41,632 bases of DNA, from the IMG/VR virus record IMGVR_UViG_3300046777_001449, positions 1 through 41,632 of that record; one strand, 5' to 3'. This document shows positions 8,269 through 21,589 of the stretch, in pieces (position 1 is the first letter of the stretch; the number at the start of each line of letters is the position of its first letter). The notes beneath the pieces are model-generated. The model was not told where the DNA came from. It saw nothing but the letters and a program-made list of their open reading frames with translations, and did no database searches. Position numbers and translations under genes: made by a program. This DNA is from a virus.

Positions 8269-8292
8269 TTTAAACAATTAAAGTAGATATTG

Positions 8293-8320
8293 GGCGGGGT
8301 TCAAACGAACCCCGCCTTTT
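8293..8320 (+). terminator. Rho-independent terminator after the capsid gene
   Basis: GGCGGGGTTC at 8293-8302 pairs perfectly with GAACCCCGCC at 8307-8316 around an AAAC loop, followed by TTTT. It is the most GC-rich structure in the window and closes the head operon. Confidence 0.95.
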
Positions 8321-8367: not shown

Positions 8368-8667
8368 ATGACTAATAACGAAACAAGCGTAACATCCGAA
8401 AATATTAATAAACCAAAAAAAGCAGTAGCAAAAAAAGCTGCAGTGAAAAAAGAAATTACTCAAGAAAATATTTCTAAAGAAGGAAATGTTTTTGTTGTTT
8501 TTGAGAGCGGGACTGCTTATGTAACAGCATCTGGTTTTCGTTTTTCACAAAGAAATAAAATAGGCTTGCTTCCAGCAGAAGAAGCCAACTTGCTTCTTGC
8601 ATTAGATAATTTTAGATTGCCTAGTGATGAAGAAAAGGAAATGTATTATACTAATCAGGAGGATTAA
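8368..8667 (+). CDS. Hypothetical protein with lysine/alanine-rich N-terminus
   Basis: A 99-residue protein I do not recognise. Residues 1-45 are hydrophilic and probably disordered, with a KPKKAVAKKAAVKKE run; residues 48-80 look like a small beta domain (GNVFVVFESGTAYVTASGFR), ending in acidic residues. The Lys/Ala run resembles nucleic-acid-binding tails but could also be a linker. It is the first gene after the capsid terminator, under a leaderless-type promoter, and 2 nt separate it from a tail-fibre-type gene, so a virion role such as head decoration or a fibre base is possible. Confidence 0.7.
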   Translation: MTNNETSVTSENINKPKKAVAKKAAVKKEITQENISKEGNVFVVFESGTAYVTASGFRFSQRNKIGLLPAEEANLLLALDNFRLPSDEEKEMYYTNQED

Positions 8668-8669
8668 TA

Positions 8670-9053
8670 ATGGCAGGCAATCTTACAAACTATCTTGAGA
8701 ACAAACTTATTGATCACTTCCTTGGTACCGCATCGTATACAATGCCAGCAGATGTCTATGTAGCGCTATTTACAGTCGCTCCATCTGATGCAGGTGGTGG
8801 AACAGAAGTTACAGGTGGTTCATATGCTCGTCAAATTGCAACATTTAGCAGTGCATCAAGTGGTGCAACATCAAATGATTCAAACATTGACTTTACAGGA
8901 ATGCCAGCAGTAACAACTGTCGCAATTGGTATTTTTGATGCTTTAACAAGTGGAAACATGTTGTTGTATGGAACACTTACAACAAACAAAACAACAGATG
9001 CTGGGGATACTTTAAGAATCGCAACAGGCGATCTTGATATCAGCATTGACTAA
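8670..9053 (+). CDS. Phage tail-fibre-associated structural protein
   Basis: A 127-residue protein that fits a common phage minor structural family: NLTNYLENKLIDHFLGTASY, then PADVYVALFTVAPSDAGGGTEV, GGSYARQIATF, and a late GIFDALTSGNMLLYGTLTT. Family members are beta-rich and occur in tail or fibre modules of many siphoviruses and cyanophages; the exact role is not settled. AGGAGG at 8657-8662 precedes the ATG by 7 nt. It opens a run of small virion proteins leading to the long fibre gene at 10099. Confidence 0.8.
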   Translation: MAGNLTNYLENKLIDHFLGTASYTMPADVYVALFTVAPSDAGGGTEVTGGSYARQIATFSSASSGATSNDSNIDFTGMPAVTTVAIGIFDALTSGNMLLYGTLTTNKTTDAGDTLRIATGDLDISID

Positions 9054-9062
9054 GGAGTTTTG

Positions 9063-9404
9063 ATGCTGAGAAGAGAATTTACAGGAGCTGCGCTGAGAAC
9101 AAATCTAAGTGCAAATATTTCAAGCAGTGACTCTTCTTTTGCTGTAACCGATGCAAGTGGTTTTCCATCTGGTTCAAATCCATTTGCAGTGGTTATTGAT
9201 AGAGGAACATCTGATGAAGAGAAAATCCTTATTTCCTCAAGAAGCACAAATACCTTTACAATTCAGACTCGTGGTTATGACGGAACAACGGCAAAATCAC
9301 ATACATCTGGTGCATTCGTAGACCACATTCTTGATGCAGCAACAATTCAAGACATGAATACGACAACTTATGATAACGAAGTTTTAATGTGGATGGGGGC
9401 ATAA
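9063..9404 (+). CDS. Small virion/tail protein with RGxDGT motif
   Basis: A 113-residue beta-rich protein. The RGYDGTTAKSHTSGA segment near residue 78 is typical of small phage tail or fibre proteins, and the N-terminal half (SSFAVTDASGFPSGSNPFAVVIDRGTSDEE, quoted here only by its start SSFAVTDASGFPSG and end) reads as a matching beta domain. I use ATG 9063, 5 nt after AAGGAG at 9052-9057, rather than the TTG one codon earlier. The stop abuts the next ATG. It is probably part of the fibre or its base. Confidence 0.75.
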   Translation: MLRREFTGAALRTNLSANISSSDSSFAVTDASGFPSGSNPFAVVIDRGTSDEEKILISSRSTNTFTIQTRGYDGTTAKSHTSGAFVDHILDAATIQDMNTTTYDNEVLMWMGA

Positions 9405-9737
9405 ATGGCAAATCTAGTTCCAAAGTCTTTTTATCTTGGTAATTCAACAGGTTCTAATGTGTATACAGTAGCGAATACGGCTGGTAATTACTCAATTATT
9501 AAATCAATCAATATTTGCAATACCAGCAATACCGCAAATGCTACAGCCGATATTCACATCCTTGTAGCTGGAGCAGCACCATTAGCTAATAATAAAATTA
9601 TTAGCAATGCTAATGTCATTAAAAACGATGTCCTGTATTACAACACATCTATTGTCGTTCCAGCAAACAGTAATGTCTATGTTGCTTCAAGTAACTCTTC
9701 AATTACATTTAGCATTAGCGGGGTAGAGTATGCCTAA
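9405..9737 (+). CDS. Small beta-sandwich virion protein
   Basis: A 110-residue protein with strong beta-strand alternation and many Asn, Ser and Thr residues (YSIIKSINICNTSNTANATA, NSNVYVASSNSSITFSISG). It starts directly after the preceding stop and overlaps the next gene by 8 nt, so it is coupled within the fibre operon. Composition resembles the small proteins at 26761 and 4810-5328, without clear alignment. I assign no function beyond likely structural protein. Confidence 0.7.
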   Translation: MANLVPKSFYLGNSTGSNVYTVANTAGNYSIIKSINICNTSNTANATADIHILVAGAAPLANNKIISNANVIKNDVLYYNTSIVVPANSNVYVASSNSSITFSISGVEYA

Positions 9738-10098
9738 TCTTGTTAATAGCGGGAGTGGAGTTGGTGGTTCTGGTGCATCTGGAATTATAACCTGGGATCC
9801 GACAAAAGAAGAGTTTAAAATTGGCGATAAGTTTTATGGGTTTCAATACTATCCAGCAAATGCAAAATTGATAATCCAGGAAATCCTTGAACCAACTATT
9901 ATTACAAATGAATACGACACTACATCTAATGTAGTGTCAATTCCAAAACATAGATTGGGGGATGTCTTTACTCCAGACAACGAGTATTTTGATCCTTCAA
10001 ATCATGGTATATATAAAAACTGGTTAACCAGTCAAGCTGAATTAACATTTTCTTGGTATACTGGTAACGAAAAGAATTTAATAGTGGAGGTTGCATAA
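9730..10098 (+). CDS. Hypothetical fibre-operon protein
   Basis: A 122-residue protein beginning with a glycine/serine-rich stretch (VNSGSGVGGSGASG) followed by a compact aromatic-rich region (WDPTKEEFKIGDKFYGFQYY) and a C-terminal strand WYTGNEKNLIVEVA. No signal peptide or membrane segment. It overlaps the previous gene by 8 nt, and its stop directly abuts the ATG of the large fibre gene, so it may encode a fibre adaptor. Not recognised by family. Confidence 0.65.
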   Translation: MPNLVNSGSGVGGSGASGIITWDPTKEEFKIGDKFYGFQYYPANAKLIIQEILEPTIITNEYDTTSNVVSIPKHRLGDVFTPDNEYFDPSNHGIYKNWLTSQAELTFSWYTGNEKNLIVEVA

Positions 10099-12123
10099 AT
10101 GGCTGCAATAGATCTTGGTAGACTAAGGTTCTACCATCAAGGTGCCTATAATAGTGGTACTACATATGAAATGAATGATGTTGTTACATATGGTGGTGTT
10201 TCGTATGTCTATGTAAGCACAACAAATGCAAGCGGAAATGCTCCAACAAATACAACCTATTGGTCAAAATTAGCAGATGGTATTTCTGCAAGAGGTAACT
10301 GGGCATCAAATACAGTTTACTACCCAGGAGATATTGTAGAAAGTGGTGGAAATAGCTATCGTGTTCTTTTGCAACACACATCTGGTAATTTTTTAAATAT
10401 TGATATTGTTGCTAACAAGGTTACTCCTTTTGTTGAAGGCTTTGATTGGCGTGGTGCTTGGGCTGCAAATACAGCCTATAAAACTAATGATGTTGTTTTT
10501 ATAGATGGAAATGCTTACATCTCAACTCAGGACTTTACTTCTGATGGTACATCTTTTGCTGGCGATAACTCTGGTGAGTGGGAATTGTTTTCACAGGGTG
10601 GAACTGGAGAAATCCCATCTCAGTCTGGAAATGCAAACAAAGTACTAAAAACTGATGGAACAAATGTTTCATGGACAAATGCGGTAAGTATTGTTAGCGC
10701 TACTTTGTCTGGTGAATTGTCTGCAAACACAGTTGTTGGTGGTCAAGTTACATCTAATGTGGATCTGTATGTAGGTGGTACTGGGTTTGTTGGTCCAAAC
10801 GCTGCGACTTTTGGAAGTGGATTAACCAATCCAAGACTTGTGTTGCAAACAGATAAAACAGATTATGCACAAATTGCATTTAGAAATTTAGGAACAAACG
10901 CAAATAGTTCAACGGACATTATCGCCTACTCAGACATTGGTGATGACGATACTGGTTGGATTGACATGGGTATCACATCAAGTAATTTTAGCGACCCAGG
11001 CTTCACAGTAACTGGTGCTCATGACGGATATATCTTTGTAGAAGCTCCTGCAAACTCTGCAGGTAGTGGTAACTTTATTCTTGCAACTGGTGGTAACGGA
11101 ACTCAAAATAAGATTATCTTTGCTGCTGGTGGTCTGCAAAGCAGCAATACTCAGATGGTTATTACTCCAGACACATCTGTTGCTATCAATATTGCAACCA
11201 ATTCTACAAGCGCTACAACAGGTGCATTAACTGTTGCTGGTGGTCTTGGTGTTGGCGGTAATGTTTATATTGCTGGCAATACAAACATTGTTGGTACAAT
11301 CACAATTGGTGGTGGTGCGTTTCAGTCAAACAACCTTACCGTATCAGACCCAATTGTTTTCATGGGAAATACAAACACTGGTGATACCTTTGATCTAGGC
11401 TTTGCTGGTAAGTTTAATGATGGTGCTGTTAAGTATGCAGGTCTTCTGCGAGATGCATCGGATAGCGGAAAGTTCAAGCTATTTACAAACTTAACCACTG
11501 CTCCTACATCAACAGCAAACTTTGCTGCTGCATCAAGCGCATCACTGGTTCTGGCAGGTGTAGAAGCAAGTGGAAATGTTGTAATTACATCAAATGTCGC
11601 TTCAGCAAACACAACATCTGGCTCGCTCATCGTAACAGGTGGTGCTGGTATCTCCAATAATGTGTTTGTAGGTGGAAATATCTCGGTTGCTGGAACATCT
11701 GCGCTAACAGGTGATGTAACCATTACTGGAAATGCAACAATCAGTGGAAGATTGGTTGTTAATGAGCTGTCAGAAGGCACTGCTGCAGGAACAATTTCTA
11801 CAAATGTTCTTACAGTCGCATATACAGATACGCTTGTTTCATATGTTTCATCACCATCTGCTAACTTTACTGTTAATTTAACAGGTGTCCCAACAACAAA
11901 TGATCGTATAACGACATATACTGTTCTTGTGACACAAGGAGCAACTGGCTATATTCCAAGTGCTTTCCAGATTGATGGCTCAGCACAAACTATTAAATGG
12001 GCAGGTGGAACAGCTCCAACTCCAACATCGTCAAGTGGTAAGATTGATATATTCAGCTTCTCGCTCCTTAGGAATTCAAGCGGTACATGGATTGTATTTG
12101 GAGCAGGTAACTTAAATTACTAA
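10099..12123 (+). CDS. Long tail fibre with N-terminal CBM5/12-like modules
   Basis: A 674-residue fibre. The first ~165 residues hold three aromatic modules of the CBM5/12 (chitin-binding-like) type, each with W/Y...Y...D-V-V/I...Y pattern: YNSGTTYEMNDVVTYGGVSY, NWASNTVYYPGDIVESGGNSY and AWAANTAYKTNDVVFIDGNAY. The central region contains triangular-beta or beta-helix repeats such as TTGALTVAGGLGVGGNVYIA and TSGSLIVTGGAGISNNVFVG. The C-terminus (TYTVLVTQGATGYIPSAFQI, then IDIFSFSLLRNSSGTWIVFG) is a domain common at the ends of cyanophage-type fibres. GGAGG precedes the ATG. It is likely a receptor-contacting or receptor-positioning fibre. Confidence 0.85.
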   Translation: MAAIDLGRLRFYHQGAYNSGTTYEMNDVVTYGGVSYVYVSTTNASGNAPTNTTYWSKLADGISARGNWASNTVYYPGDIVESGGNSYRVLLQHTSGNFLNIDIVANKVTPFVEGFDWRGAWAANTAYKTNDVVFIDGNAYISTQDFTSDGTSFAGDNSGEWELFSQGGTGEIPSQSGNANKVLKTDGTNVSWTNAVSIVSATLSGELSANTVVGGQVTSNVDLYVGGTGFVGPNAATFGSGLTNPRLVLQTDKTDYAQIAFRNLGTNANSSTDIIAYSDIGDDDTGWIDMGITSSNFSDPGFTVTGAHDGYIFVEAPANSAGSGNFILATGGNGTQNKIIFAAGGLQSSNTQMVITPDTSVAINIATNSTSATTGALTVAGGLGVGGNVYIAGNTNIVGTITIGGGAFQSNNLTVSDPIVFMGNTNTGDTFDLGFAGKFNDGAVKYAGLLRDASDSGKFKLFTNLTTAPTSTANFAAASSASLVLAGVEASGNVVITSNVASANTTSGSLIVTGGAGISNNVFVGGNISVAGTSALTGDVTITGNATISGRLVVNELSEGTAAGTISTNVLTVAYTDTLVSYVSSPSANFTVNLTGVPTTNDRITTYTVLVTQGATGYIPSAFQIDGSAQTIKWAGGTAPTPTSSSGKIDIFSFSLLRNSSGTWIVFGAGNLNY

Positions 12124-12135
12124 ATAGGAGATATA

Positions 12136-12918
12136 ATGCCATTCTTTAGCAGTATTCAATCAAGAGGTCCATTTGGACAAAAAGGCGCAAAGGTAAAGCT
12201 TACCGCTACTGGCGGTAACGGAACGCAAACAATCGGTGCGTACAAATATCACACATTTACATCTAATGGAACACTGACGGTGGTTGGATCTGGTGAGATT
12301 CAAATACTTGCTGTAGGTGGTGGAGGCGGTGGAGGAACTTCACCAGGTGTTGCTGGTGCTGGTGGTGGTGGTGTGATTGCATATAATACTTATACATGCA
12401 CAAGCAATCTGTCAATAACAATTGGTGGTGGTTCTGGTCCAGGCGCTATCGGATCAGCAAATGGTGGATCAACAACGGTTACAGGAACTGGTATTTCTGT
12501 CACCGCACTTGGCGGTGGTGGTCAACAAAGAGGCACTGCATCTGGACAAGTTGGCTCTGGTGGTGCTTATAGTGGTGTCGGAACATCACCGCAAGGAAGA
12601 ACAAATGGAAATCACGGTCATGGTGCTGGATCTAATCAGGTTGGAGAGTATATCTCAAACGGTTGGAATGTTGATGCAAATACAGCTCAGATTTCAGCGA
12701 TGTCAGGCATGACATATCTTGCATCTGGTGGTGCTCTTGGTGGAAACCCTAATCATGGAGGTACTGGCGGTGGTCAGGGACCAGGTGGTGGAGGTATTTA
12801 TGGCGCAGCAGCAACATCATGGGGATCTGGTGGTGGTGGTGCAAGCAACATGAATTATCATTTTAGTAATGGCAGTGCTGGAAAATCAGGTATTGTTGTT
12901 GTGAGGTATTTGGTCTAA
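12136..12918 (+). CDS. Glycine-rich adhesin (fibre tip) 1
   Basis: A 260-residue glycine-rich protein. After a short N-terminal region, HTFTSNGTLTVVGSGEIQIL leads to AVGGGGGGGTSPGVAGAGGG and further Gly-rich loops, closing with the strand GIVVVRYLV. This glycine-rich architecture is shared by phage fibre-tip proteins and by the T-even gp38-type adhesins, where poly-Gly loops set receptor specificity. The same framework occurs in the larger gene at 24979. AGGAGA precedes the ATG, and the stop overlaps the next start by 1 nt. Placement right after the long fibre supports a tip or receptor-binding role. Confidence 0.75.
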   Translation: MPFFSSIQSRGPFGQKGAKVKLTATGGNGTQTIGAYKYHTFTSNGTLTVVGSGEIQILAVGGGGGGGTSPGVAGAGGGGVIAYNTYTCTSNLSITIGGGSGPGAIGSANGGSTTVTGTGISVTALGGGGQQRGTASGQVGSGGAYSGVGTSPQGRTNGNHGHGAGSNQVGEYISNGWNVDANTAQISAMSGMTYLASGGALGGNPNHGGTGGGQGPGGGGIYGAAATSWGSGGGGASNMNYHFSNGSAGKSGIVVVRYLV

Positions 12919-13262
12919 TGTCATTAAATTACGCTTATGTCATCAATGGCGTAGTTCAGAATATTGTTGTTGCTGATACAGCATGGGTTGATGAACAAGA
13001 AGATAAAGAAAACTATATTCAATACTCAGAGAGTAATTATGCATTTATAAATGGTCCATATATTGATGGTTGGTTTTATGAACCAAAGCCATATCCGTCA
13101 TGGTCTCTAAACACAGTGACTAAGCAATGGCAAGCGCCAATTGACAAACCTACTGATTTAAAAAAATGGTGGGATTGGGATGAAGATAGTCAATCTTGGG
13201 TTGAAAACCCAAATTTTGCATGGAGTGAAGTAGATCAACATCTTTCAATTATAGAAGATTAA
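12918..13262 (+). CDS. Fibre-module protein with C-terminal WWxW-x6-W motif
   Basis: A 114-residue protein of a type common in aquatic phages: an N-terminal beta part (LNYAYVINGVVQNIVVADTA), then PYPSWSLNTVTKQWQAP and a tryptophan-rich end with W84, W85, W87 and W94 in WWDWDEDSQSW. Relatives are annotated as tail-fibre assembly or virion structural proteins. The same WWxW-x6-W ending appears at the C-terminus of the halogenase encoded 0.6 kb downstream. It overlaps the glycine-rich adhesin gene by 1 nt and is the last gene of the first fibre operon. Confidence 0.7.
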   Translation: MSLNYAYVINGVVQNIVVADTAWVDEQEDKENYIQYSESNYAFINGPYIDGWFYEPKPYPSWSLNTVTKQWQAPIDKPTDLKKWWDWDEDSQSWVENPNFAWSEVDQHLSIIED

Positions 13263-13273
13263 AAATATTTAAT

Positions 13274-13282
13274 TGTGATAGA
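13274..13282 (+). promoter_or_regulatory. Possible extended -10 promoter for the enzyme cassette
   Basis: TGT-GATAGA (extended -10 form, weak hexamer) ends 8 nt before the ATG at 13291, and no Shine-Dalgarno is present. Geometry matches the other leaderless-type promoters of this window, but the hexamer match is poor. Confidence 0.35.
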
Positions 13283-13290
13283 CTTTTCCT

Positions 13291-13911
13291 ATGGAAGAAA
13301 AAAATGTATTTGATCATATTTTTATTGTTGAAAATGTTTTAACTCCAACACATTTAAAGCTTTTAACAGACACTGTAAAAGCACCAAATTTTCAATGGAA
13401 TTATTTGCCAAACACTCATACTGATCATACAATTAATCCATTAAATTCTTATGGACTTGTTCATAATTTGTATGACTATAAATATCAAGAAAAACCTAGT
13501 GAGCACTGGGGTGTGTTTATAGTTCCATTACTAGTGATGATTGATAAAGCTGGATTTGAATTCCACTCGCTGCTCAGGGCAAGAGTGAATTGTACAGTAA
13601 GTAATGCGATGCCTCATGATGGCTATCCGCATATAGACGATCTAGACCAGATATCAATGTATAGTGCAATATTTTATATTGAAAACTCTGATGGTCCAAC
13701 CATTCTTTATTCTCATATGAGAAAATCAATCAATGAAAACCCATATTTAGATGCTCACCCCGATGTTGATTTTGTTCCAGCAAGAATAATTGATCCAATT
13801 AAAAATACTGGTTTTATTTTTGATGGAAACATATATCATAGTGGAATGCTGCCAGAAAAACATCCAACAAGAACTTTGATTAATTATAACTTTTTAGGGA
13901 GAAAAAAATGA
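13291..13911 (+). CDS. Fe(II)/2-oxoglutarate-dependent oxygenase (prolyl-hydroxylase-like)
   Basis: A 206-residue enzyme with the double-stranded beta-helix signature: iron ligands H114-x-D116 (GYPHIDDL) and distal H183 (GNIYHSGM), with R194 eleven residues later to bind 2-oxoglutarate. The strand SMYSAIFYIENSDGPTILY between them is typical. Members hydroxylate proteins, nucleobases or small molecules; the substrate cannot be read from sequence. The stop overlaps the halogenase start (ATGA), so it belongs to one operon with the halogenase, sulfotransferase and a second Fe(II) oxygenase. Related oxygenases are common in aquatic phages, often near tail genes. Confidence 0.85.
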   Translation: MEEKNVFDHIFIVENVLTPTHLKLLTDTVKAPNFQWNYLPNTHTDHTINPLNSYGLVHNLYDYKYQEKPSEHWGVFIVPLLVMIDKAGFEFHSLLRARVNCTVSNAMPHDGYPHIDDLDQISMYSAIFYIENSDGPTILYSHMRKSINENPYLDAHPDVDFVPARIIDPIKNTGFIFDGNIYHSGMLPEKHPTRTLINYNFLGRKK

Positions 13912-15437
13912 AAAAAATAACAATTGTTGGGTCTGGCACCGCTGGGCTTATTACTGCACTCTATGTAAAAAAAATGTTCCCAGCATATGATATAAAGATC
14001 ATATCTTCTTCATCAATTGGAATTATTGGTGTTGGTGAAGGTTCAACTGAGCACTGGCGTGAGTTCCAAACGGTTGTTGGTATTGACAATACCGATATGA
14101 TAAAAGAGACTGATGCTACTCATAAATATGGAATTCGTTTTATAAACTGGACAAATCATACGCCAGATTATTTTCACAGCATAGCCCCAGGTGGAAGAGT
14201 TAATAAAGGTAATTTTCTTGGAAGCTATACATACGCATTAAAAAACAATTTGTTATTAACTGATACTTTTGCATCAACAGGCTTGCGGTCTAATTTGATA
14301 GAGCTATCTGATGATGTTCACATGAACACAAATCAATATCATTTTGATACATTTAAGCTAAATGAATATTTAAAAAATCTCTGCATCCAGCGAGATATTG
14401 CCCTAACTGATTCCCAGGTTGTGAATCTCACTAGAGATAGTCAAACTGGTTTTATAGATTCACTTGTTTTATCAGACAACTCAATAGATAAATCTGATTT
14501 CTTTTTTGATGCAACTGGTTTTTCTCGTGTTTTAATGAAATTTTTAGACAAACCAGACTTTGTGAGTTATTCTGAATACTTACCAACAAATTCAGCAATC
14601 GTTTTCCCTAAGCAGCATGATAAGTCTGGACAGATTAAGCCATACACAAAAGCTACAGCAATGTCTAGCGGCTGGATGTTTGAGATACCAACTTTGAACC
14701 GAATTGGTAATGGTTATATTTTTGATTCAAGCCATATTGATGAAGAGGGTGCGGCAGAGGAGGCATCTTCTATTCATGGATTTAAGATTGAAAATTATAG
14801 AAGTATTAAGTATGATGCTGGCTATTTAAGAAATAGCTGGCAGTATAACTGTGTTGCAGTTGGTCTTTCTGGATCTTTTGTTGAACCACTTGAGGCAACA
14901 TCAATAGCAACAACAATACAGCAGATTAAATTAATATGCTCGTATCTTCCAACATTTACAAAGAATAGTAAAAAAACAGTAAACGAATATCACAGGATTA
15001 TGGATTCTGTTATGGAAAATATTCTCACGATGATATCACTCCACTATATCTCTGACAGGAGAGACACCCCTATGTGGTTAGAGCAAAGCAACAGACCAAA
15101 GCCTGAGCTGCTGAATCATTTACTGGAAATATGGAGCGAAAGACCACCTGAGTACCATGATATTCCTACAACTGGGTTTGAACTGTTTAGTTGTAATCAC
15201 TTTTGGCATGTAGCTCAAGGACAAGGTGTTTTGAGCAAAGAATCTGCACTAAAACAATTAGAGGCATATGATCCGCTTCATGAGGTTGATATTTTCATGA
15301 AAGCTCTTAAGGCTGAGAGGGTGTCATCAATCTTGTTGGATCACGCAGAGGAACTGAGGAATTTAAAGAGACCACCAAAACCAGATTCTGATGGATGGTG
15401 GACATGGAGTGATGAGGACCAAAAATGGATGTATTAA
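13908..15437 (+). CDS. Flavin-dependent halogenase (tryptophan halogenase/PrnA-like)
   Basis: A 509-residue FAD enzyme. Features: Rossmann motif IVGSGTAGL (residues 6-14), the halogenase GVGEGSTEHW box (41-50), probable catalytic Lys73 in ATHKYGIRFINW (compare PrnA K79), SGWMFEIPTLNRIGNGYIF with W256, F258, I260, P261 (the WxWxIP motif with Trp changed to Phe), and FVEPLEATSI with Glu329 at the position of the catalytic PrnA Glu, followed by Ala where PrnA has Ser. It would use FADH2, O2 and halide to make hypohalous acid for halogenating an aromatic substrate. A phage relative, VirX1 of cyanophage Syn10, is known to iodinate. The C-terminus carries W497, W498, W500 and W507, matching the tail of the protein encoded at 12918. 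It overlaps the sulfotransferase gene by 13 nt. Confidence 0.9.
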   Translation: MKKITIVGSGTAGLITALYVKKMFPAYDIKIISSSSIGIIGVGEGSTEHWREFQTVVGIDNTDMIKETDATHKYGIRFINWTNHTPDYFHSIAPGGRVNKGNFLGSYTYALKNNLLLTDTFASTGLRSNLIELSDDVHMNTNQYHFDTFKLNEYLKNLCIQRDIALTDSQVVNLTRDSQTGFIDSLVLSDNSIDKSDFFFDATGFSRVLMKFLDKPDFVSYSEYLPTNSAIVFPKQHDKSGQIKPYTKATAMSSGWMFEIPTLNRIGNGYIFDSSHIDEEGAAEEASSIHGFKIENYRSIKYDAGYLRNSWQYNCVAVGLSGSFVEPLEATSIATTIQQIKLICSYLPTFTKNSKKTVNEYHRIMDSVMENILTMISLHYISDRRDTPMWLEQSNRPKPELLNHLLEIWSERPPEYHDIPTTGFELFSCNHFWHVAQGQGVLSKESALKQLEAYDPLHEVDIFMKALKAERVSSILLDHAEELRNLKRPPKPDSDGWWTWSDEDQKWMY

Positions 15438-15964
15438 CACACGGATCTTTTCCGAGGTCTGGTAATCATTTGCTAGATACAATTCTCAAGTTCTCTTATC
15501 CTTCATGTACGATTAAATGGATAGAACATAATGCTTGGCTTTCGTTAAAAGAAAAAAATTTTATTTGCGTAGTTCGTGATCCCTTGATGTGCGCAGCATC
15601 CTGGATCGCTCTCTCTCAAGACTCAAGAGAAAATCGCTCCGAAATGATTCTAAATTGGTATAGTAGGTATCATAGCTTTATGATGAAAAATAATAATGCT
15701 GTATTGATCAACTTTGATGATTTAATAAAAAATCCATCAATGCTTAATGATATTATTTATTTCAAGTTTAATATTAAAAATAGTTTAGAAATACCAAATG
15801 ATTATTATCTTAATCATATGAGTATTATTCATCCTGACAATTATCCTAAAGGTAACAGTGATCAAAAAAATATATTGATTAATGAAATTAAAAAATCATC
15901 TGAGTATAAAAATGCAAAGAAAATATATAAAAATATTTTGAAAAGGACAGTTAATGAATTTTAA
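15425..15964 (+). CDS. Sulfotransferase-like protein (PAPS-dependent, compact)
   Basis: A 179-residue protein with both PAPS-binding signatures of sulfotransferases: the 5'-phosphosulfate loop GSFPRSGNHLL (residues 7-17) and the 3'-phosphate motif VVRDPLMCAASW (49-60), in which R51 and S59 are eight residues apart as in oestrogen sulfotransferase R130/S138. The loop lysine of the classical PKSGTTW form is Arg here. At 179 residues it is shorter than usual (about 250-300) and the C-terminal part is Lys/Asn/Ile-rich, so it may be minimal or need a partner. It starts inside the halogenase gene (13-nt overlap) and its end overlaps the next gene by 11 nt. It would transfer sulfate to a hydroxyl, amine or tyrosine; the acceptor is unknown. 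Confidence 0.75.
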   Translation: MDVLTHGSFPRSGNHLLDTILKFSYPSCTIKWIEHNAWLSLKEKNFICVVRDPLMCAASWIALSQDSRENRSEMILNWYSRYHSFMMKNNNAVLINFDDLIKNPSMLNDIIYFKFNIKNSLEIPNDYYLNHMSIIHPDNYPKGNSDQKNILINEIKKSSEYKNAKKIYKNILKRTVNEF

Positions 15965-16505
15965 ATATATTAAAAATTTTAATATAGACAAGATTAAAAA
16001 AATCGTTACGCTGTTTACCGATGAATGGGAAGTGGACACATCAAGGCAAAAAACATTTGATGCCCACTCAGCAACGAAAACATACAATATCTATAATATA
16101 GATATTGTTATGTGGAAGCCTGGAATGCAGTATGAAACAAGATTATCCTGTAAAAATAAAAAATTACTAAAATATGTTGATAGAATAGTTTCTGATTTGG
16201 AAAAATTACATGACGGTAGAGTTGGTCAATGTATTCTAACAAGTCTTGATGCTGGTGCTGAAATACCTTATCATGTAGATAAAGGTGAATATCTTGTTGC
16301 TTCAAAAAGACATCACATCCCAATTATCACGAGTGATAATGTCTTTTTCTTTATAGATAGCGAACTGTCTGTTATGGGAGAAGGGGAGTGTTGGGAGATT
16401 AGAAATACAAGACCTCACCGTGTTGTTAATGCCAGTGGTCTTGATCGCATTCATTTAATAATTGATATTATTCCGAATAAATATATAGGAGGCGCAAATG
16501 CTTAG
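15954..16505 (+). CDS. Aspartyl/asparaginyl beta-hydroxylase-like Fe(II)/2OG oxygenase
   Basis: A 183-residue cupin-type oxygenase. Candidate iron ligands are H107 (IPYHVDKG, with D109) and H155 (TRPHRVVN); RHHIPI (119-124) and RIHLIID with R165 match the co-substrate-binding strands of the Asp/Asn hydroxylase family. GECWEIRN before H155 is also characteristic. Animal members hydroxylate Asp or Asn in proteins; bacterial members modify peptides or amino acids. It overlaps the sulfotransferase gene at its start and a small membrane protein gene at its end (8 nt), so it is the fourth consecutive modification enzyme. Confidence 0.85.
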   Translation: MNFKYIKNFNIDKIKKIVTLFTDEWEVDTSRQKTFDAHSATKTYNIYNIDIVMWKPGMQYETRLSCKNKKLLKYVDRIVSDLEKLHDGRVGQCILTSLDAGAEIPYHVDKGEYLVASKRHHIPIITSDNVFFFIDSELSVMGEGECWEIRNTRPHRVVNASGLDRIHLIIDIIPNKYIGGANA

Positions 16506-16782
16506 TTTTAATGATATTTTGAAAGTTTCAAAAAAATGGGGAAACAAGAGTTACTGGACTAAGACAAATATAGTTGAAGCTTGGGCTTTTATGACCAAGA
16601 TTGCAATCATATTCCCAGGTCTACTGTTTGGAGTGCAGTTTTGGTGGTTATATATATTTGCACTCGTGTCAAGTCTTGCTTTAATACTAACATCAACTAT
16701 TAAAACAATGCCGACAATTATTTGGTTTAATATTGCATGGGTATTTCTTGCTTCTGCATCAATAATTAAATATTGGTGGTAA
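16498..16782 (+). CDS. Small membrane protein with three predicted TM segments
   Basis: A 94-residue protein with hydrophobic stretches around residues 33-50 (KIAIIFPGLLFGVQFWW), 51-68 (YIFALVSSLALILTSTI) and 72-93 (TIIWFNIAWVFLASASIIKY). AGGAGG at 16488-16493 precedes the ATG, which lies inside the end of the hydroxylase gene. It could be a holin or antiholin because lysis genes follow, or a membrane anchor for the enzyme cassette with which it is co-transcribed. No family recognised with certainty. Confidence 0.7.
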   Translation: MLSFNDILKVSKKWGNKSYWTKTNIVEAWAFMTKIAIIFPGLLFGVQFWWLYIFALVSSLALILTSTIKTMPTIIWFNIAWVFLASASIIKYWW

Positions 16783-16813
16783 TTTCTATTGTTTATCAAT
16801 AACTTTAAGACTT

Positions 16814-16843
16814 TTGTCAAATTAACTCTTTCTAAGATATAAT
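16814..16843 (+). promoter_or_regulatory. Sigma70-like promoter, leaderless for the GTG at 16850
   Basis: TTGTCA at 16814-16819 and TATAAT at 16838-16843 have an 18-nt spacer. The -10 ends 6 nt before the GTG start, with no Shine-Dalgarno. The CTAAGATATAAT block recurs at 20244-20255 before the holin genes. Confidence 0.75.
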
Positions 16844-16849
16844 CTTTAT

Positions 16850-17080
16850 GTGAAAAGATTATTTTCTGTGTTATGCCTTTCAATAGGCTTGCTTTCATGC
16901 GGGTATGACGGTGGTTATCGCTACCCATGCCAAGACCCAGAAAATTGGGAGAATGAAGAATGCAAACCTCCAACATGCAAGGTAGATGGGGCTTGTACAG
17001 AAGACTTGCTCGGATTCAATCCGTCATCAGACACAGCCCCAGAAGACACCGTTTTGACAGAGGAGACAGTAGCGCCATGA
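16850..17080 (+). CDS. Small lipoprotein (candidate outer spanin-like or surface protein)
   Basis: A 76-residue protein from a GTG start. It has a lipoprotein signal: MKRLFSVLCLSIGLLSC with lipobox LLSC (Cys17). The mature part contains four further Cys residues (YPCQDPENWENEECKPPTCK, then GACTEDL) and an acidic Thr/Glu tail. The ATG two bases earlier is followed at once by TGA, so GTG 16850 is the start. I recall similar small cysteine-bearing lipoproteins in aquatic phages. A spanin role would be unexpected in an actinobacterial host without a typical outer membrane. Its stop overlaps the next ATG (ATGA). Confidence 0.7.
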   Translation: MKRLFSVLCLSIGLLSCGYDGGYRYPCQDPENWENEECKPPTCKVDGACTEDLLGFNPSSDTAPEDTVLTEETVAP

Positions 17081-17337
17081 AAAAAAGATTAACTCCAGAA
17101 GAACTGGATGCTCGTTTAAAGTTTGTTATCGGATGCATGCTCGGAGCTGTTTTACTTATTACCACTGTTTTTATTCTTTATGCACTCGTATTCGTGACAC
17201 AACCAATTGGTGCTCAAGCCGAAAACGACAAGATGTTCTTCGGTGTTCTTTCCTCGGTTGCAACATTTATTACAGGAACATTGGCTGGTCTGATGATTTC
17301 TACAGGAAGGAATAAAGATAGCTCTTCAGAGGAATGA
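17077..17337 (+). CDS. Small membrane protein (holin-like)
   Basis: An 86-residue protein with two predicted transmembrane helices: residues ~15-38 (FVIGCMLGAVLLITTVFILY) and ~54-74 (FFGVLSSVATFITGTLAGLM), with charged ends (KKRLTPEELDAR and RNKDSSSEE). The ATG overlaps the lipoprotein stop; an in-frame start at 16960 would overlap that gene by 121 nt and is not credible. Two-helix proteins with short charged ends in a lysis region are holin candidates, but several compete for the role here. Confidence 0.7.
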   Translation: MKKRLTPEELDARLKFVIGCMLGAVLLITTVFILYALVFVTQPIGAQAENDKMFFGVLSSVATFITGTLAGLMISTGRNKDSSSEE

Positions 17338-20237
17338 TGAGAAAGATATCTTTTAGCAAAGGTTCCTGGGCGCTAATTCCTGCACTAGTTGTCTCATTGG
17401 TATCTATATTTATCTCATCGTCAAGTGTAAATGCGAATAATACCACTCCAATACCAAACGCAGGGTTTGAAGACAATACATTTACTGGTTGGTCAAAAGG
17501 CTCTCAAACTGGAACACTAGGTTCTTCTATAACTGGAAACGGATCTGGCGTAACAATATTTAATGGCTCAAGGACATTCGCTCATGGATCTCACGGTGCT
17601 ATGGGTAATCCATCCAGCCCATACTATGCTCCAGCGGTAAGCGCAGGAAGTTGGACATTCTCGCCAAAGAACGCTACTTATGCTGCTCTTCTTCAGCCAA
17701 AAGGAGAACAAACTTATAATCAAGCTATAGCAGCATTGGGTCTTAATAACGCAGAGAAGAGTGAAATCCAAAACATTCTTACTTCACAAGCATCTGCATC
17801 AGGCTTTGGTGGTGGTAATCCAACTGATGCTGCATGGATAACTCGTGAAGTTCAATTGACTGCTGGAGATGTATATACAATGGCTTGGAACTATGTGGGA
17901 ACTGACTATGTTCCGTACAACGATGGCTCCATAACATCACTCGTTCCAGTATCGGTAAATGGAACACCTGTAATTACAGTTAACAACTATGTTAAATCTT
18001 ATGCTTTACTTGGATTCACTAACCCAGGAACAGGCGACTATTCAACCAACTCCTATGGCGCTACTGGTTGGCAAACATCAACATACGAGGTTTCTATATC
18101 AGGAACATATAAACTTGGCTTTACATCATTTAACCTGGATGATCAAGGACTACCTCCAGCATTGATGGTTGATAGTGAAGCTGGGTCAACACAAAAGTGT
18201 ATCTCTGGAACCTGCACTACATTTGGCGGTGTTGAACCAAATAATGAAACAGCACCAACTGTTCCCCCAACTACTACTACTGAGCCTGCAACTACTACGA
18301 CTACAACAGTTCCACCTACCACTACCACAACTACTACCACAACTACAGTTCCATCTACAACAACTACAACAATCCCTCCTATAGTGGAAAATATTGTTTG
18401 GGGTGAGATTGATGAAAATGGTGAATTAACATTAACCGCTCCAAGCGGCAATGTATTTACATCAGTCCTTTTTGCTAGTTATGGAACTCCTACAGGCTCT
18501 GATGGTGACTATTCAATTGGGCAATGTCATGCGTCAACTTCTATCACTGAAGTTGCAGATATCGCTCTAGGGAGTAGTGTTGCTGTCATACCAGCAAACA
18601 ATGATGTGTTTGGAGACCCATGCGGTGGTACTGGAAAGCGCTTGTATGTTTCTCTTCAGTACGGTGAAGACACATCGGAGCCTTATTTCAACACAGTGCA
18701 AAATTTAACTGCAGTAGCAAATAGTGATGGCAGTGTTGATCTTAATTGGGATACTCCAGCATCTAGTAACGCTGTACCTTATGGTTATTCAATAACTTTT
18801 TATGATTTGAATAATGGTGTTGTTTCTGGTGGTTGGGGAATTTGGACTTTAAACAATTCTTATAATCTCGGTCACTACATGTTTGATGGGAATAATCCAG
18901 TAACTACTGGTTATGGTCCTGTTCGTTTTGAAGTAAAAGCTATGAGCGAAGGTTGTGTTGGGGCAGATAGTAATCCATGTCTGTACGGTCCAGGGTCTAC
19001 TGTGGATGCTACGGTTCTTGAGCCTACCACTAGCACCACCACTAGCACTACGACTACCACTACAGTGCCAAACACTACAACGACTACGGTTGTTATAAAT
19101 ACACCAGAGCCCCCAACTACTGAGCCTGAGGTTATAAATTCACCAGAAACGCTCCCAGAGCCTTCTACGACCACATCTGAGCCAGAGCCAGAAGTCACCG
19201 ACTCTATCTCTGAAGAAACTACGACAACGACAGAGCCAGATTTAGAGCCATCGGTAGAAGAAGAGGTTCAGGAAGAGGTTATTCCTGAAGAGATAACTCC
19301 AGAGGAAGTAGCGGTTATCGTGGATCAGATTATTGATGCTTCTGCTGAAGAAGTAATAGCAGTACTATCAGCTCTAAGTGGTGAAGAGGTGACTGCTGTG
19401 ATTGAAAATATATCCGCAGAGCAGCTATCGGAAGTTCTTGACGAACTTCCAGCAGAAGAAGTTTTGAGCCTTATTGAGTCAATTGACTCTGCAGATGCAT
19501 TAGCAAATGTTGTTGATGCAATCAGTGATGAAACGATTGATCCAGATACCGCAATTGCAGTTATTGAAAACGGAAATTTTGAAGAATTACCTATTGAGCA
19601 AGTTGCAGAAGTTTTTGCTGCAATTGAGCCAGAACAATTTACAGAAGAGCAAAAGACAGAACTAGCTGCTGTGCTTACTGAAGCTCCAACTGAGATCAAG
19701 GAAGCGTTTGAAGAAGAAATTGACATCTATGGAGATGGGTTTGATGATTATGTTCCTACAGGGTCAAGCATTGATGTTGGAACTCGTAAGACAGTTCTTG
19801 CAGCAGTAGCCGCTACAGCAACAATAGCTGCTGGCGCAGCAGCGTCTGGAGGAGGCACATCAGGTGGTGGTTCATCTGGAGGTGGTTCTGGTGGAGGATC
19901 TCCTAGTGGCAATGAAGGTCGCTCAAGAAGAGAGGAAGATTCTGGCGATGAACCGTCTGGAGAAATTGCTGGACCAGAAGATGACGATGGCGAAGAATTT
20001 ACAAGAAACAGTATTTTTAAATATTATATTAAGGAGGGCAAAGAAATGAAGAAATTTAATTTGTTCGGTTTTAGCAAAAAAATATGGGACATCACTGCTG
20101 GTTTAGCCTTTACTCTGGCAGGAAGTCTTGTGGTTTATGTTACTCTTTCTGGAGTAACACAAAGAATTGCTGGAATTGCAACTTTAATTGCTATTCTTGT
20201 GCATTATGTGCATGAAATTCTAAAGAATGACGAATAA
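17334..20237 (+). CDS. Large secreted surface protein with SUEL-type lectin domain and C-terminal membrane segment
   Basis: 967 residues. N-terminal signal peptide (~1-34). Residues ~38-290 form a beta-rich domain beginning PNAGFEDNTFTGW, of the kind seen in bacterial surface proteins. A Thr/Pro/Val linker follows (~308-348). Residues ~355-445 fit the SUEL (galactose/rhamnose-binding) lectin domain: FASYGTPTG, GQCHAST, NNDVFGDPCGGTGKRLYVSL. A fibronectin-III-like domain comes next (~450-560), then a second Thr-rich linker, then acidic helical repeats (~643-799: EEVIAVLSALSGEEV and EEVLSLIESIDSAD types), a hydrophobic Ala-rich stretch (~819-840), a Gly/Ser linker, and a C-terminal hydrophobic region (~915-962). 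The last 63 residues have their own AAGGAGGG and ATG. It may display a lectin on the host surface or act in adsorption. The start overlaps the previous stop (ATGATGA). Confidence 0.75.
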   Translation: MMRKISFSKGSWALIPALVVSLVSIFISSSSVNANNTTPIPNAGFEDNTFTGWSKGSQTGTLGSSITGNGSGVTIFNGSRTFAHGSHGAMGNPSSPYYAPAVSAGSWTFSPKNATYAALLQPKGEQTYNQAIAALGLNNAEKSEIQNILTSQASASGFGGGNPTDAAWITREVQLTAGDVYTMAWNYVGTDYVPYNDGSITSLVPVSVNGTPVITVNNYVKSYALLGFTNPGTGDYSTNSYGATGWQTSTYEVSISGTYKLGFTSFNLDDQGLPPALMVDSEAGSTQKCISGTCTTFGGVEPNNETAPTVPPTTTTEPATTTTTTVPPTTTTTTTTTTVPSTTTTTIPPIVENIVWGEIDENGELTLTAPSGNVFTSVLFASYGTPTGSDGDYSIGQCHASTSITEVADIALGSSVAVIPANNDVFGDPCGGTGKRLYVSLQYGEDTSEPYFNTVQNLTAVANSDGSVDLNWDTPASSNAVPYGYSITFYDLNNGVVSGGWGIWTLNNSYNLGHYMFDGNNPVTTGYGPVRFEVKAMSEGCVGADSNPCLYGPGSTVDATVLEPTTSTTTSTTTTTTVPNTTTTTVVINTPEPPTTEPEVINSPETLPEPSTTTSEPEPEVTDSISEETTTTTEPDLEPSVEEEVQEEVIPEEITPEEVAVIVDQIIDASAEEVIAVLSALSGEEVTAVIENISAEQLSEVLDELPAEEVLSLIESIDSADALANVVDAISDETIDPDTAIAVIENGNFEELPIEQVAEVFAAIEPEQFTEEQKTELAAVLTEAPTEIKEAFEEEIDIYGDGFDDYVPTGSSIDVGTRKTVLAAVAATATIAAGAAASGGGTSGGGSSGGGSGGGSPSGNEGRSRREEDSGDEPSGEIAGPEDDDGEEFTRNSIFKYYIKEGKEMKKFNLFGFSKKIWDITAGLAFTLAGSLVVYVTLSGVTQRIAGIATLIAILVHYVHEILKNDE
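18267..18377 (+). repeat. Low-complexity ACT/ACA repeat coding a Thr-rich linker
   Basis: Degenerate threonine codon run (ACT, ACC, ACA, ACG mixed) with Val-Pro and Pro interruptions, inside the lectin protein gene. Mixed synonymous codons argue for protein-level selection rather than recent slippage. Confidence 0.85.
19023..19100 (+). repeat. Second Thr-rich linker repeat
   Basis: A shorter run of mixed Thr and Ser codons coding TTSTTTSTTTTTTVPNTTTT, between the fibronectin-like domain and the acidic helical repeats of the same protein. Confidence 0.8.
20046..20237 (+). CDS. Possible internal-start small membrane protein nested in the lectin gene
   Basis: ATG 20046 is in frame with the 967-residue protein (its codon 905) and follows AAGGAGGG at 20031-20038. 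The 63-residue product has a positively charged start (MKKFNLFGFSKK) and two hydrophobic helices (ITAGLAFTLAGSLVVYVTL and IAGIATLIAILVHYVHEIL), like a small holin or antiholin. Either this is a separate protein whose gene became fused to the surface protein, or the site is used to make both anchored and free forms. Confidence 0.55.
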   Translation: MKKFNLFGFSKKIWDITAGLAFTLAGSLVVYVTLSGVTQRIAGIATLIAILVHYVHEILKNDE

Positions 20238-20255
20238 CTAACTCTAAGATATAAT
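20227..20255 (+). promoter_or_regulatory. Sigma70-like promoter for the holin/endolysin operon
   Basis: ATGACG at 20227-20232 and TATAAT at 20250-20255 are spaced by 17 nt. Downstream is AAGGAGGTG at 20275-20283, so this promoter gives a real leader, unlike the similar promoter at 16838. Confidence 0.6.
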
Positions 20256-20288
20256 ATATATGACCCGTTGGGGTAAGGAGGTGGTCTT

Positions 20289-20486
20289 TTGTCTACTTTA
20301 TTGAATGATGCTAATAAGAAAATGCTTTCGTCTTGGGCGAGATCGTTTTTTGGAGCTGCTTTGGCTGTCTACATGACAGGCAATCATGATCCAAAGGCGA
20401 TTGCTACTGCAGGAGTTGCGGCTATTGCGCCAGTAATTCTTCGCTGGTTGAATCCAAACGATACTGCATTTGGAAGAACGAAGTAA
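20289..20486 (+). CDS. Holin-like membrane protein, TTG start
   Basis: A 65-residue protein read from TTG, 7 nt after the GGAGG in the near-perfect AAGGAGGTG at 20275-20283. It has a hydrophobic segment around residues 18-33 (WARSFFGAALAVYMTG), a second at 38-52 (AIATAGVAAIAPVIL), and ends in RWLNPNDTAFGRTK. Small proteins with this RWLNPxDTAFGR ending occur near lysis genes of aquatic phages and are often called holin-like. It is the first gene of an operon with an r1t-type holin and the endolysin. The rare start codon behind a strong site may limit its amount. Confidence 0.75.
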   Translation: MSTLLNDANKKMLSSWARSFFGAALAVYMTGNHDPKAIATAGVAAIAPVILRWLNPNDTAFGRTK

Positions 20487-20498
20487 GGGTAATTTAAA

Positions 20499-20747
20499 AT
20501 GGCACAGATAAAGAACATCCTCCTTAGAATTGTTGCAACATTTGCTGCTTCTGGTTTGGGTGTAATCGGTGCTGGAACGATTGCTGGTGTCCCGCTGTGG
20601 AAAGCAATTTTCATGGCGGGCATCGCAGGCGTAGCAACTGTTGTTGAAGGATTATCAAGAGCATTCCTAGATGATGGTAAACTTAGTCTAGACGAAATTG
20701 ATCGTGTCTTTTCAAAAGTTGAAAAGAAAAAAGAGGAGATTAAATAA
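20499..20747 (+). CDS. r1t-type holin
   Basis: An 82-residue protein fitting the phage r1t holin family: N-terminal hydrophobic segment ILLRIVATFAASGLGVIGAG, then GTIAGVPLWKAIFMAGIAGV, and a cytoplasmic acidic C-terminus with DDGKLSLDEIDRVF. Holins of this family form the membrane holes that release or activate the endolysin. The family is well represented in phages of actinobacteria and lactococci. It lies directly before the endolysin gene and overlaps it by 1 nt (TAATG). Confidence 0.85.
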   Translation: MAQIKNILLRIVATFAASGLGVIGAGTIAGVPLWKAIFMAGIAGVATVVEGLSRAFLDDGKLSLDEIDRVFSKVEKKKEEIK

Positions 20748-21589
20748 TGGCTAAAAGAACTGAATGGGATTACATTGTTGATGTAAAGATGCCTGTTGCG
20801 CTCAAAGGAGTTGAGCCAGGTAAGTTGCATCCAAGTCTATTGAGAGACATTCCAGGTGGTGGAAAATTGTTTTATCTTGCTGCTGATGCGTGGATGGCAA
20901 TGGTTGAAGCGGCTAAGGCTGAAGGTGTTGAACTAAAACCGACTTCCAGCGGCGATACATATCGCAGTTATGAAAGCCAAAAGGCAGGATTTCTTTCTAG
21001 ATACAGTCTTGAGGATACAGGTACTGGATCAACAAAAACTTTTGAAGGCAAGACTTGGTATTTGAAGAAAGGCATGGCAATGCTTGCGACACCTGGTAAG
21101 TCACAGCATAATCTCGGCTTGGCGGTTGATGTTGCTAATGCTTCTGAAAAGAAGAGAATTAATTGGTTGATTGCTAATGTTGAAAAGTTTGGATGGAGCT
21201 GGGAGGTAGTTCCTTCAGAGCCTTGGCATATTCGTTATGTTTGTGGTGATGCAGTTCCTCAAGCAGTAAAAGATTATGTTGCTCGCAATCCAAGAGAGGC
21301 AAGTCCATTTGGAACAGTAGCAGAGCAAAAAGCTGCTGCTGAAGCAAAGGCAGCAGCTCCTAAACCAAATGCTGTTGCTGCTGCTGCAAAACCAAATCTT
21401 ACAAAAGATAATAAAGGTGCTGCTGTTAAAGAAGCTCAAACACTTCTTGCAAAGCATGGCTTTGCTTGCAAACCAGATGGTGATTTTGGACCAAAAACTC
21501 AGGGACTAGTAAAAGATTTTCAGAAAGCAAAAGGTCTTGCTGTTACTGGAGATGTTGATCAAAAAACCTGGGCTGCATTGCTGGCATAA
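20747..21589 (+). CDS. Endolysin: M15 (VanY-like) peptidase with C-terminal peptidoglycan-binding domain
   Basis: A 280-residue cell-wall hydrolase. The catalytic domain (~25-185) has the M15 zinc site: H121 and D128 in SQHNLGLAVDV, and H161 in EPWHIRYV with catalytic Glu158; the substrate-binding Arg73 is in GDTYRSYESQ. An Ala/Lys/Pro linker (~193-213) joins it to a PG_binding_1 domain (~215-280) with KEAQTLLAKHGF, DGDFGPKTQGLVKDFQKAKG and TWAALLA. It should cleave L,D- or D,D-peptide bonds in the stem peptide. No signal peptide, so release depends on the holins encoded just upstream. Confidence 0.93.
   Translation: MAKRTEWDYIVDVKMPVALKGVEPGKLHPSLLRDIPGGGKLFYLAADAWMAMVEAAKAEGVELKPTSSGDTYRSYESQKAGFLSRYSLEDTGTGSTKTFEGKTWYLKKGMAMLATPGKSQHNLGLAVDVANASEKKRINWLIANVEKFGWSWEVVPSEPWHIRYVCGDAVPQAVKDYVARNPREASPFGTVAEQKAAAEAKAAAPKPNAVAAAAKPNLTKDNKGAAVKEAQTLLAKHGFACKPDGDFGPKTQGLVKDFQKAKGLAVTGDVDQKTWAALLA

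Follow-up and report, generated by a model that had tools for sequence, protein, structure and literature searches.

Why would a phage carry, among its fibre genes, a run of genes for enzymes of different modification chemistries, and what would these enzymes modify? We asked this of a linear viral contig of 41.6 kb, IMG/VR record IMGVR_UViG_3300046777_001449 (positions 1 to 41,632, the whole stretch analysed and hereafter the window), in which an initial annotation made from the letters alone had picked out four consecutive enzyme genes. The four open reading frames (ORFs) are as described there, on the plus strand: Ox1, an oxygenase of the Fe(II)/2-oxoglutarate (2OG) type (206 aa, 13291–13911); Hal, a flavin-dependent halogenase with a 19-residue Trp-rich C-terminal tail (509 aa, 13908–15437); Sulf, a probable 3′-phosphoadenosine-5′-phosphosulfate (PAPS)-dependent sulfotransferase (179 aa, 15425–15964); and Ox2, of the Asp/Asn β-hydroxylase family (183 aa, 15954–16505). 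Their overlaps of 4 nt (Ox1/Hal), 13 nt (Hal/Sulf) and 11 nt (Sulf/Ox2) hold, but the single translational unit proposed for them is incomplete: a fifth gene, TM, overlaps Ox2 by 8 nt (16498–16505) and is the last of the unit (16498–16782, plus strand, with a Shine–Dalgarno-like AGGAGG). It encodes a 94-aa membrane protein with three predicted transmembrane helices. Upstream on the same strand lie a Gly-rich adhesin, Gly12136 (260 aa, 12136–12918; PF21722 Gly_rich_2, E = 3.6e-10), and orf12918 (114 aa, 12918–13262; PHROG 7759, E = 1.2e-8), which travels with the adhesin. All seven genes follow one another head to tail in the late region, overlapping or separated by short gaps, and the proposed position of the enzymes among fibre and adhesin genes is supported. 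Our favoured reading, which we hold tentatively, is that the cassette is an instance of an exchangeable adhesin-decoration module of aquatic tailed phages that modifies receptor-binding adhesins.

The block from adhesin to Ox2 is exchanged between close relatives

We compared the window with loci of relatives in viral contigs, numbered L001, L017 and so on. At L017, L024 and L023, most flanking genes are 84–97% identical to those of the window and TM is 87–94% identical, and Gly12136, orf12918, Sulf and Ox2 are missing. Their replacement, which extends from the adhesin to Ox2, consists of another adhesin (c21), a further protein, other 2OG oxygenases, proteins of PHROG 7084 and PHROG 17480, and a different halogenase that is 33%, 32% and 53% identical to Hal, respectively. 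The block that begins with the Gly-rich adhesin and ends with Ox2 is swapped whole between close relatives, with TM and the flanks remaining in place. In every version of the slot that we saw, a halogenase is accompanied by one or more 2OG oxygenases, and fibre genes adjoin them.

L001 carries the same four enzyme genes as the window. Its synonymous divergence (dS) from the window is 1.3–2.4 in the cassette versus 0.26 in the capsid gene; because of this 5–9-fold excess, we take the cassette to have an older history, separate from that of the capsid gene, consistent with exchange. The ratio of nonsynonymous to synonymous divergence (dN/dS) of the cassette genes in the same comparison is 0.09–0.21, so the four enzyme genes are more than chance ORFs and have been kept functional by purifying selection. 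L102, where the neighbours are otherwise different, has the adhesin (48% identical), orf12918 (42%), Ox1 (54%) and Hal (58%) in the same order as the window. Within 6 kb of 37 dereplicated halogenase loci we found a 2OG oxygenase in 34, a fibre-like gene in 34 and a PHROG 7084 protein in 33.

The initial annotation had proposed checking whether the four-gene order is conserved. Homologues of Sulf and Ox2 in this order were found only in the close relative L001, which was also the sole return when viral contigs were scanned with Sulf and Ox2. Among 50 halogenase-bearing records, PF05118 (the family of Ox2) scored above its cut-off in three and the sulfotransferase model PF13469 in none; PF13469 also missed the L001 copy and is therefore insensitive for the Sulf family. 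A sulfotransferase has been recruited independently at L053 (PF00685, E = 3.4e-12), and at L035 inspection by eye revealed a PAPS-like loop and an RDP motif, with no Pfam match, followed by a relative of Ox2. Because the enzyme set is replaced in close relatives and the adhesin–orf12918–Ox1–Hal order is kept in L102, we conclude that the core of the cassette is a halogenase plus a 2OG oxygenase beside fibre genes, with Sulf and the Asp-hydroxylase optional.

Unrelated 'moron' enzymes might also gather at a hot spot among the fibre genes, each with its own role and no common substrate, 2OG oxygenases acting for example on 2OG or iron status. The wide variation of accessory genes in the slot would suit this explanation, as would the roles suggested in print for cyanophage 2OG genes, in nitrogen metabolism (PMC3037559) or PiuC-like iron uptake (PMC13184970). 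We nevertheless consider it unlikely, since almost all versions of the slot pair a halogenase with 2OG oxygenases even though the halogenases are only distantly related, and since one membrane protein family, so far known only from viruses, accompanies them, a combination that independent accumulation would not keep.

Two of the recurrent cassette proteins, those of PHROG 7084 and PHROG 17480 (for example, L002:6521-7255 and L002:7255-8004), are both missing from the window version. A fibre-like protein adjoining the halogenase cassette of another relative (L010:5854-7701) contains very His/Asn/Gly-rich stretches (HHTTPHHHGNAHVNNGHH...), which a fibre would not usually have and which may bind metal.

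A viral membrane protein family accompanies the halogenases

TM had no matches in Pfam, PHROG or NCBIfam, and a structure model (predicted local distance difference test score, pLDDT, 68) had none in the PDB, yet 35 of its 94 positions are invariant among 34 homologues. Searches of 50,697 phage records and of 84,980 species genomes, which would show only relatives within search reach, did not find TM, and no bacterial genome searched gave one. Scans of viral contigs returned 140 relatives of TM and at least 598 of Hal, of which the best 80 were kept in each case. For linkage we counted loci with at least 5 kb of flank on both sides, and recounted them in six frames because the gene caller loses TM beneath an overlapping minus-strand ORF in some loci. 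A halogenase was present at 45 of 50 TM loci, and TM at 37 of 48 halogenase loci; as the loci are best matches and partly redundant, these fractions hold for this part of sequence space and not for phage halogenases at large. Two of the five TM loci that have no halogenase nearby (L067 and L096) have one elsewhere on the same contig. Of 118 loci with both genes, 112 have them on one strand with the halogenase upstream of TM; reversed and opposite-strand neighbours also occur.

TM accompanies halogenases from several clusters less than 40% identical to one another, in several gene orders. Because it goes with halogenases of very different subfamilies, TM likely has a direct part in the same process, either as the membrane site of the reaction or in export. 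A fuller and more speculative proposal, to which we give about one chance in three, is that TM is the dedicated membrane partner of distantly related phage halogenases and 2OG oxygenases in a viral-only system that modifies phage adhesins or the cell surface, the halogenase possibly being docked through a Trp-rich tail. We rejected a holin as the main interpretation of TM: a gene of an endolysin-like family (the one endolysin family sought) lies within 5 kb in 10 of 50 TM loci, versus a halogenase in 45 of 50.

The presence of TM, together with the carbamoyl-, glycosyl- and sulfotransferases of related loci, makes modification of the host envelope the main rival explanation. The cassette would then act on a surface glycan, a lipid-linked precursor or a surface protein, with TM as anchor or exporter, and would mask receptors and exclude superinfecting phages, as serotype-conversion clusters do with other chemistry. 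The tight linkage of a protein with three predicted transmembrane helices to the halogenases argues for this, and so do the genes for a carbamoyltransferase, a glycosyltransferase, an FkbM-like protein and a PF00685 sulfotransferase in related loci, which are typical for surface polysaccharide. However, flavin halogenases target aromatic rings, which are scarce in surface glycans; the genes sit in a late structural unit rather than an early one; Pfam and PHROG searches found no glycosyltransferase or lipid-carrier enzyme in the window cassette; and the co-transfer of the adhesin is left unexplained. Known serotype-conversion (gtr) clusters, by comparison, combine a bactoprenol glycosyltransferase with a flippase in a lysogeny module, whereas the window cassette, with no glycosyltransferase found, has a late structural position. 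We therefore regard envelope modification as a rather doubtful alternative, with roughly one chance in four.

Two further observations concern the neighbours of TM. After Ox1 and Hal, L102 has a different 76-aa membrane protein in the place of TM (L102:4961-5191), with a weak DUF6552 match below the cut-off; it has no detectable homology to TM, and its reading as a TM homologue is not supported. At two loci, short halogenase-like proteins of 388–395 aa that are about 23–24% identical to Hal adjoin TM (L035:9298-10485 and L025:7738-8904).

Adhesins as candidate substrates

Under the adhesin-decoration reading, the enzymes would act inside the infected cell, presumably with late expression. Oxygenases of the Ox1 and Ox2 type would hydroxylate side chains of the neighbouring Gly-rich adhesin or fibre, the FADH2-dependent Hal would halogenate exposed Tyr or Trp residues on it, and in this phage Sulf may add sulfate, all before virion assembly. 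The cofactors (reduced flavin, 2OG, iron and PAPS) would come from the host; no flavin reductase was found in the cassette. A protein target is plausible because flavin halogenases that act on peptides, such as MibH, are known from natural-product pathways. Such decoration would tune receptor binding or stability, which would account for the joint exchange of enzymes and adhesin in the manner of host-range genes.

Adhesins were among the targets first suggested, and this choice gains indirect support from the transfer of the Gly-rich adhesin and the enzymes as a group. The accompanying suggestion that the enzymes jointly tailor one substrate, by hydroxylation followed by sulfation plus halogenation, found no evidence in our analysis. 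Several points weigh against adhesin decoration. No modified protein was seen, and the adhesin is a target that we infer. A general insertion hot spot could also account for the proximity to fibre genes. The conserved TM fits modification of an envelope or glycan equally well, as do the carbamoyl-, glycosyl- and FkbM-type transferases encoded at related loci. Enzymes and adhesin do not always move together: with adhesin c21, the halogenase varies while c22–2OG–c13 stays. Finally, the halogenase of pelagiphage HTVC008M sits between the genes for terminase subunits.

Phage halogenases and 2OG oxygenases have been on record since the first cyanophage genomes and are usually filed as auxiliary metabolic genes. 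The exchange of the cassette beside adhesins and the link to TM turn this into a testable claim, namely that the module acts at the tip of the virion or the surface of the cell rather than in host metabolism. If true, phages would decorate their receptor-binding proteins with halogens, hydroxyls and sulfate, which would add a new layer to host-range evolution and offer a source of peptide-halogenating enzymes.

Enzyme assignments and a Trp-rich tail

Hal is securely assigned as a flavin-dependent halogenase by its sequence. It matched PF04820 with 311.1 bits (cut-off 21; E = 1.7e-92) and PHROG 2928 with E = 1e-103, and its best matches in the PDB are tryptophan halogenases (3e-53 for the best). 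The GxGxxG motif is conserved as GSGTAG, and Lys73 and Glu329, the residues singled out at the start, are invariant across 16 phage homologues. The WxWxIP site reads GWMFEIP, with Phe for the second Trp, and GW-x-[WF]-x-IP occurs in 137 of 142 phage homologues.

As these PDB matches belong to natural-product pathways, the enzymes might tailor a secreted aromatic small molecule, such as an antibiotic or signal, that derives from a precursor of the host; antibiotic protection has been proposed for cyanophage prnA (PMC2984593). We regard this as very unlikely: Pfam and PHROG searches found no gene for scaffold synthesis and no export pump in the cassette, the linkage to adhesins does not fit, and the Hal clade is nearly confined to viruses, with at least 598 viral stretches versus 5 contigs in bacterial assemblies.

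The assignment of Ox1 and Ox2 as 2OG oxygenases, already made in the initial annotation with the same residues, is well supported by motifs. In Ox1, H114-x-D116...H183...R194 is invariant in three phages, and HxD...H...R occurs in all 20 members of the Ox1 family that we found. Ox1 had no Pfam match; it matched PHROG 274 (E = 3.2e-32) and has relatives in 155 phage records, the best of them about 28–31% identical. We rejected the PHROG 274 label 'DNA endonuclease V', which the conserved HxD...H...R does not fit. Cyanophage relatives are annotated DenV, and the endonuclease label is probably a propagated error. Ox2 scored 46.6 bits against PF05118, above the cut-off of 22.6, and H107...H155...R165 is conserved.

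Of the sulfotransferase claim, both cofactor motifs stand: the 5′-phosphosulfate-binding loop FPRSGN (P10-R-S-G-N) and the 3′-phosphate-binding R51...S59 are invariant in both known copies, those of the window and L001. The family and fold matches do not reach significance. PF13469 gave 21.3 bits for the window copy and 18.6 for that of L001, both below the cut-off of 27, and with a low-confidence model (pLDDT 61) the first 22 Foldseek matches had a sulfotransferase fold, none at E ≤ 0.001. The top match was the glycopeptide sulfotransferase Teg12 (E = 0.027), which had no sequence-level match to Sulf in a PDB search. We conclude that the product of 15425–15964 is probably a PAPS-dependent sulfotransferase. 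A search of 396 genomes of the actinobacterial phylum, made without a positive control, found no Sulf.

The last 19 residues of Hal (KPDSDGWWTWSDEDQKWMY; 15380–15437) are shared, among other family members, only by the L001 protein. They resemble the Trp-rich end of orf12918 (WDWDEDSQSW), giving the motif W-x-W-[DS]-[DE]...W. Of 3,399 proteins, 9 carry this pattern (shuffled mean 1.6), and each of the nine is either a halogenase of the Hal lineage or an orf12918 relative. As we defined the pattern with the sequences already in view, the tail as a docking element is a lead only.

Comparison with known phage clusters

The initial annotation had held that members of the set are known singly in aquatic phages and that the full set was not known to it as a described system. 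The first statement agrees with published reports (PMC3037559, PMC2984593, PMC8407142 and PMC9602691), except that a Sulf-type sulfotransferase was not found in the phage records searched. For the second, we found no literature description of the full set, nor of the TM family, the TM–halogenase link, the exchange of the whole slot together with adhesins, or a cassette of this kind that includes a sulfotransferase.

The closest published parallels differ in several respects. VirX1 of cyanophage Syn10 (PDB 6QGM; reviewed in PMC8407142) is also a phage halogenase of PF04820 and a relative of Hal (E = 3.3e-35), but it came last among the 30 PDB matches listed, Hal being closer to bacterial tryptophan halogenases and to other phage clades. 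Cyanophage and pelagiphage clusters (Sf-CH11, P-SSM2, S-H38 and HTVC008M) have a halogenase beside or near 2OG genes, within structural modules in Sf-CH11 and HTVC008M; in Sf-CH11 the order is structural protein–2OG–2OG–Hal–2OG–'ferrochelatase'–LamG protein. In these clusters TM was not found, no sulfotransferase or Asp-hydroxylase is annotated by the halogenase, and the halogenases are at most 36% identical to Hal. In the freshwater Actinomycetia phage DSL-LC01, an operon for collagen-like fibres ends with genes for a halogenase and a glycosyltransferase (PMC10611076); there the partner of the halogenase is the glycosyltransferase, and no 2OG–TM cassette is annotated. The layouts of Sf-CH11 and DSL-LC01, similar to that of the window but for TM, agree with the adhesin-decoration reading.

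The phage and the genes around the cassette

Streptomyces phages of the Stanwilliamsviridae (Wakanda and Jay2Jay) have portal, protease and capsid proteins 46–54% identical to those of the window, whose later genes are collinear with the head–tail genes of Wakanda. Because of this resemblance, the host is probably an aquatic actinobacterium. Wakanda lacks a block of about 13 kb (8368–21589) that in the window separates the capsid gene from the conserved head–tail genes that come next. The block holds fibres, the cassette, TM, an exported protein of lectin-like type and an endolysin-like gene. The cassette had been described as next to lysis genes, which is loose: the endolysin-like gene is present, but at 20747, 4.2 kb downstream of the four enzymes, with TM, a promoter-like site and the lectin-like protein between.

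An intrinsic-terminator-like hairpin with an 11-bp stem and a T-rich tail lies 3′ of the major capsid gene (8292–8317, plus strand), and a promoter-like site, TTGTCA-18-TATAAT, with 11 of 12 consensus bases, lies just 3′ of TM (16814–16843, plus strand). Both are pattern matches only, and shuffled sequence yields promoter-like sites at least as often as this region does. From these positions, one transcription unit probably spans from 3′ of the hairpin through TM, and the next probably starts at the 16814 site.

The lectin-like protein (17334–20237, 967 aa) seems to begin with a signal peptide and to have a membrane segment at its C-terminus; it also contains Thr-rich stretches and a SUEL-lectin-like domain just under the cut-off (30.5 versus 31.4 bits). 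Relatives were found in 25 of the loci surveyed, and the protein has the look of an exported one, not of a virion fibre. Farther downstream, an ORF of at least 3,477 aa (31201–41632) runs past the end of the window and by its position probably encodes the tape-measure protein.

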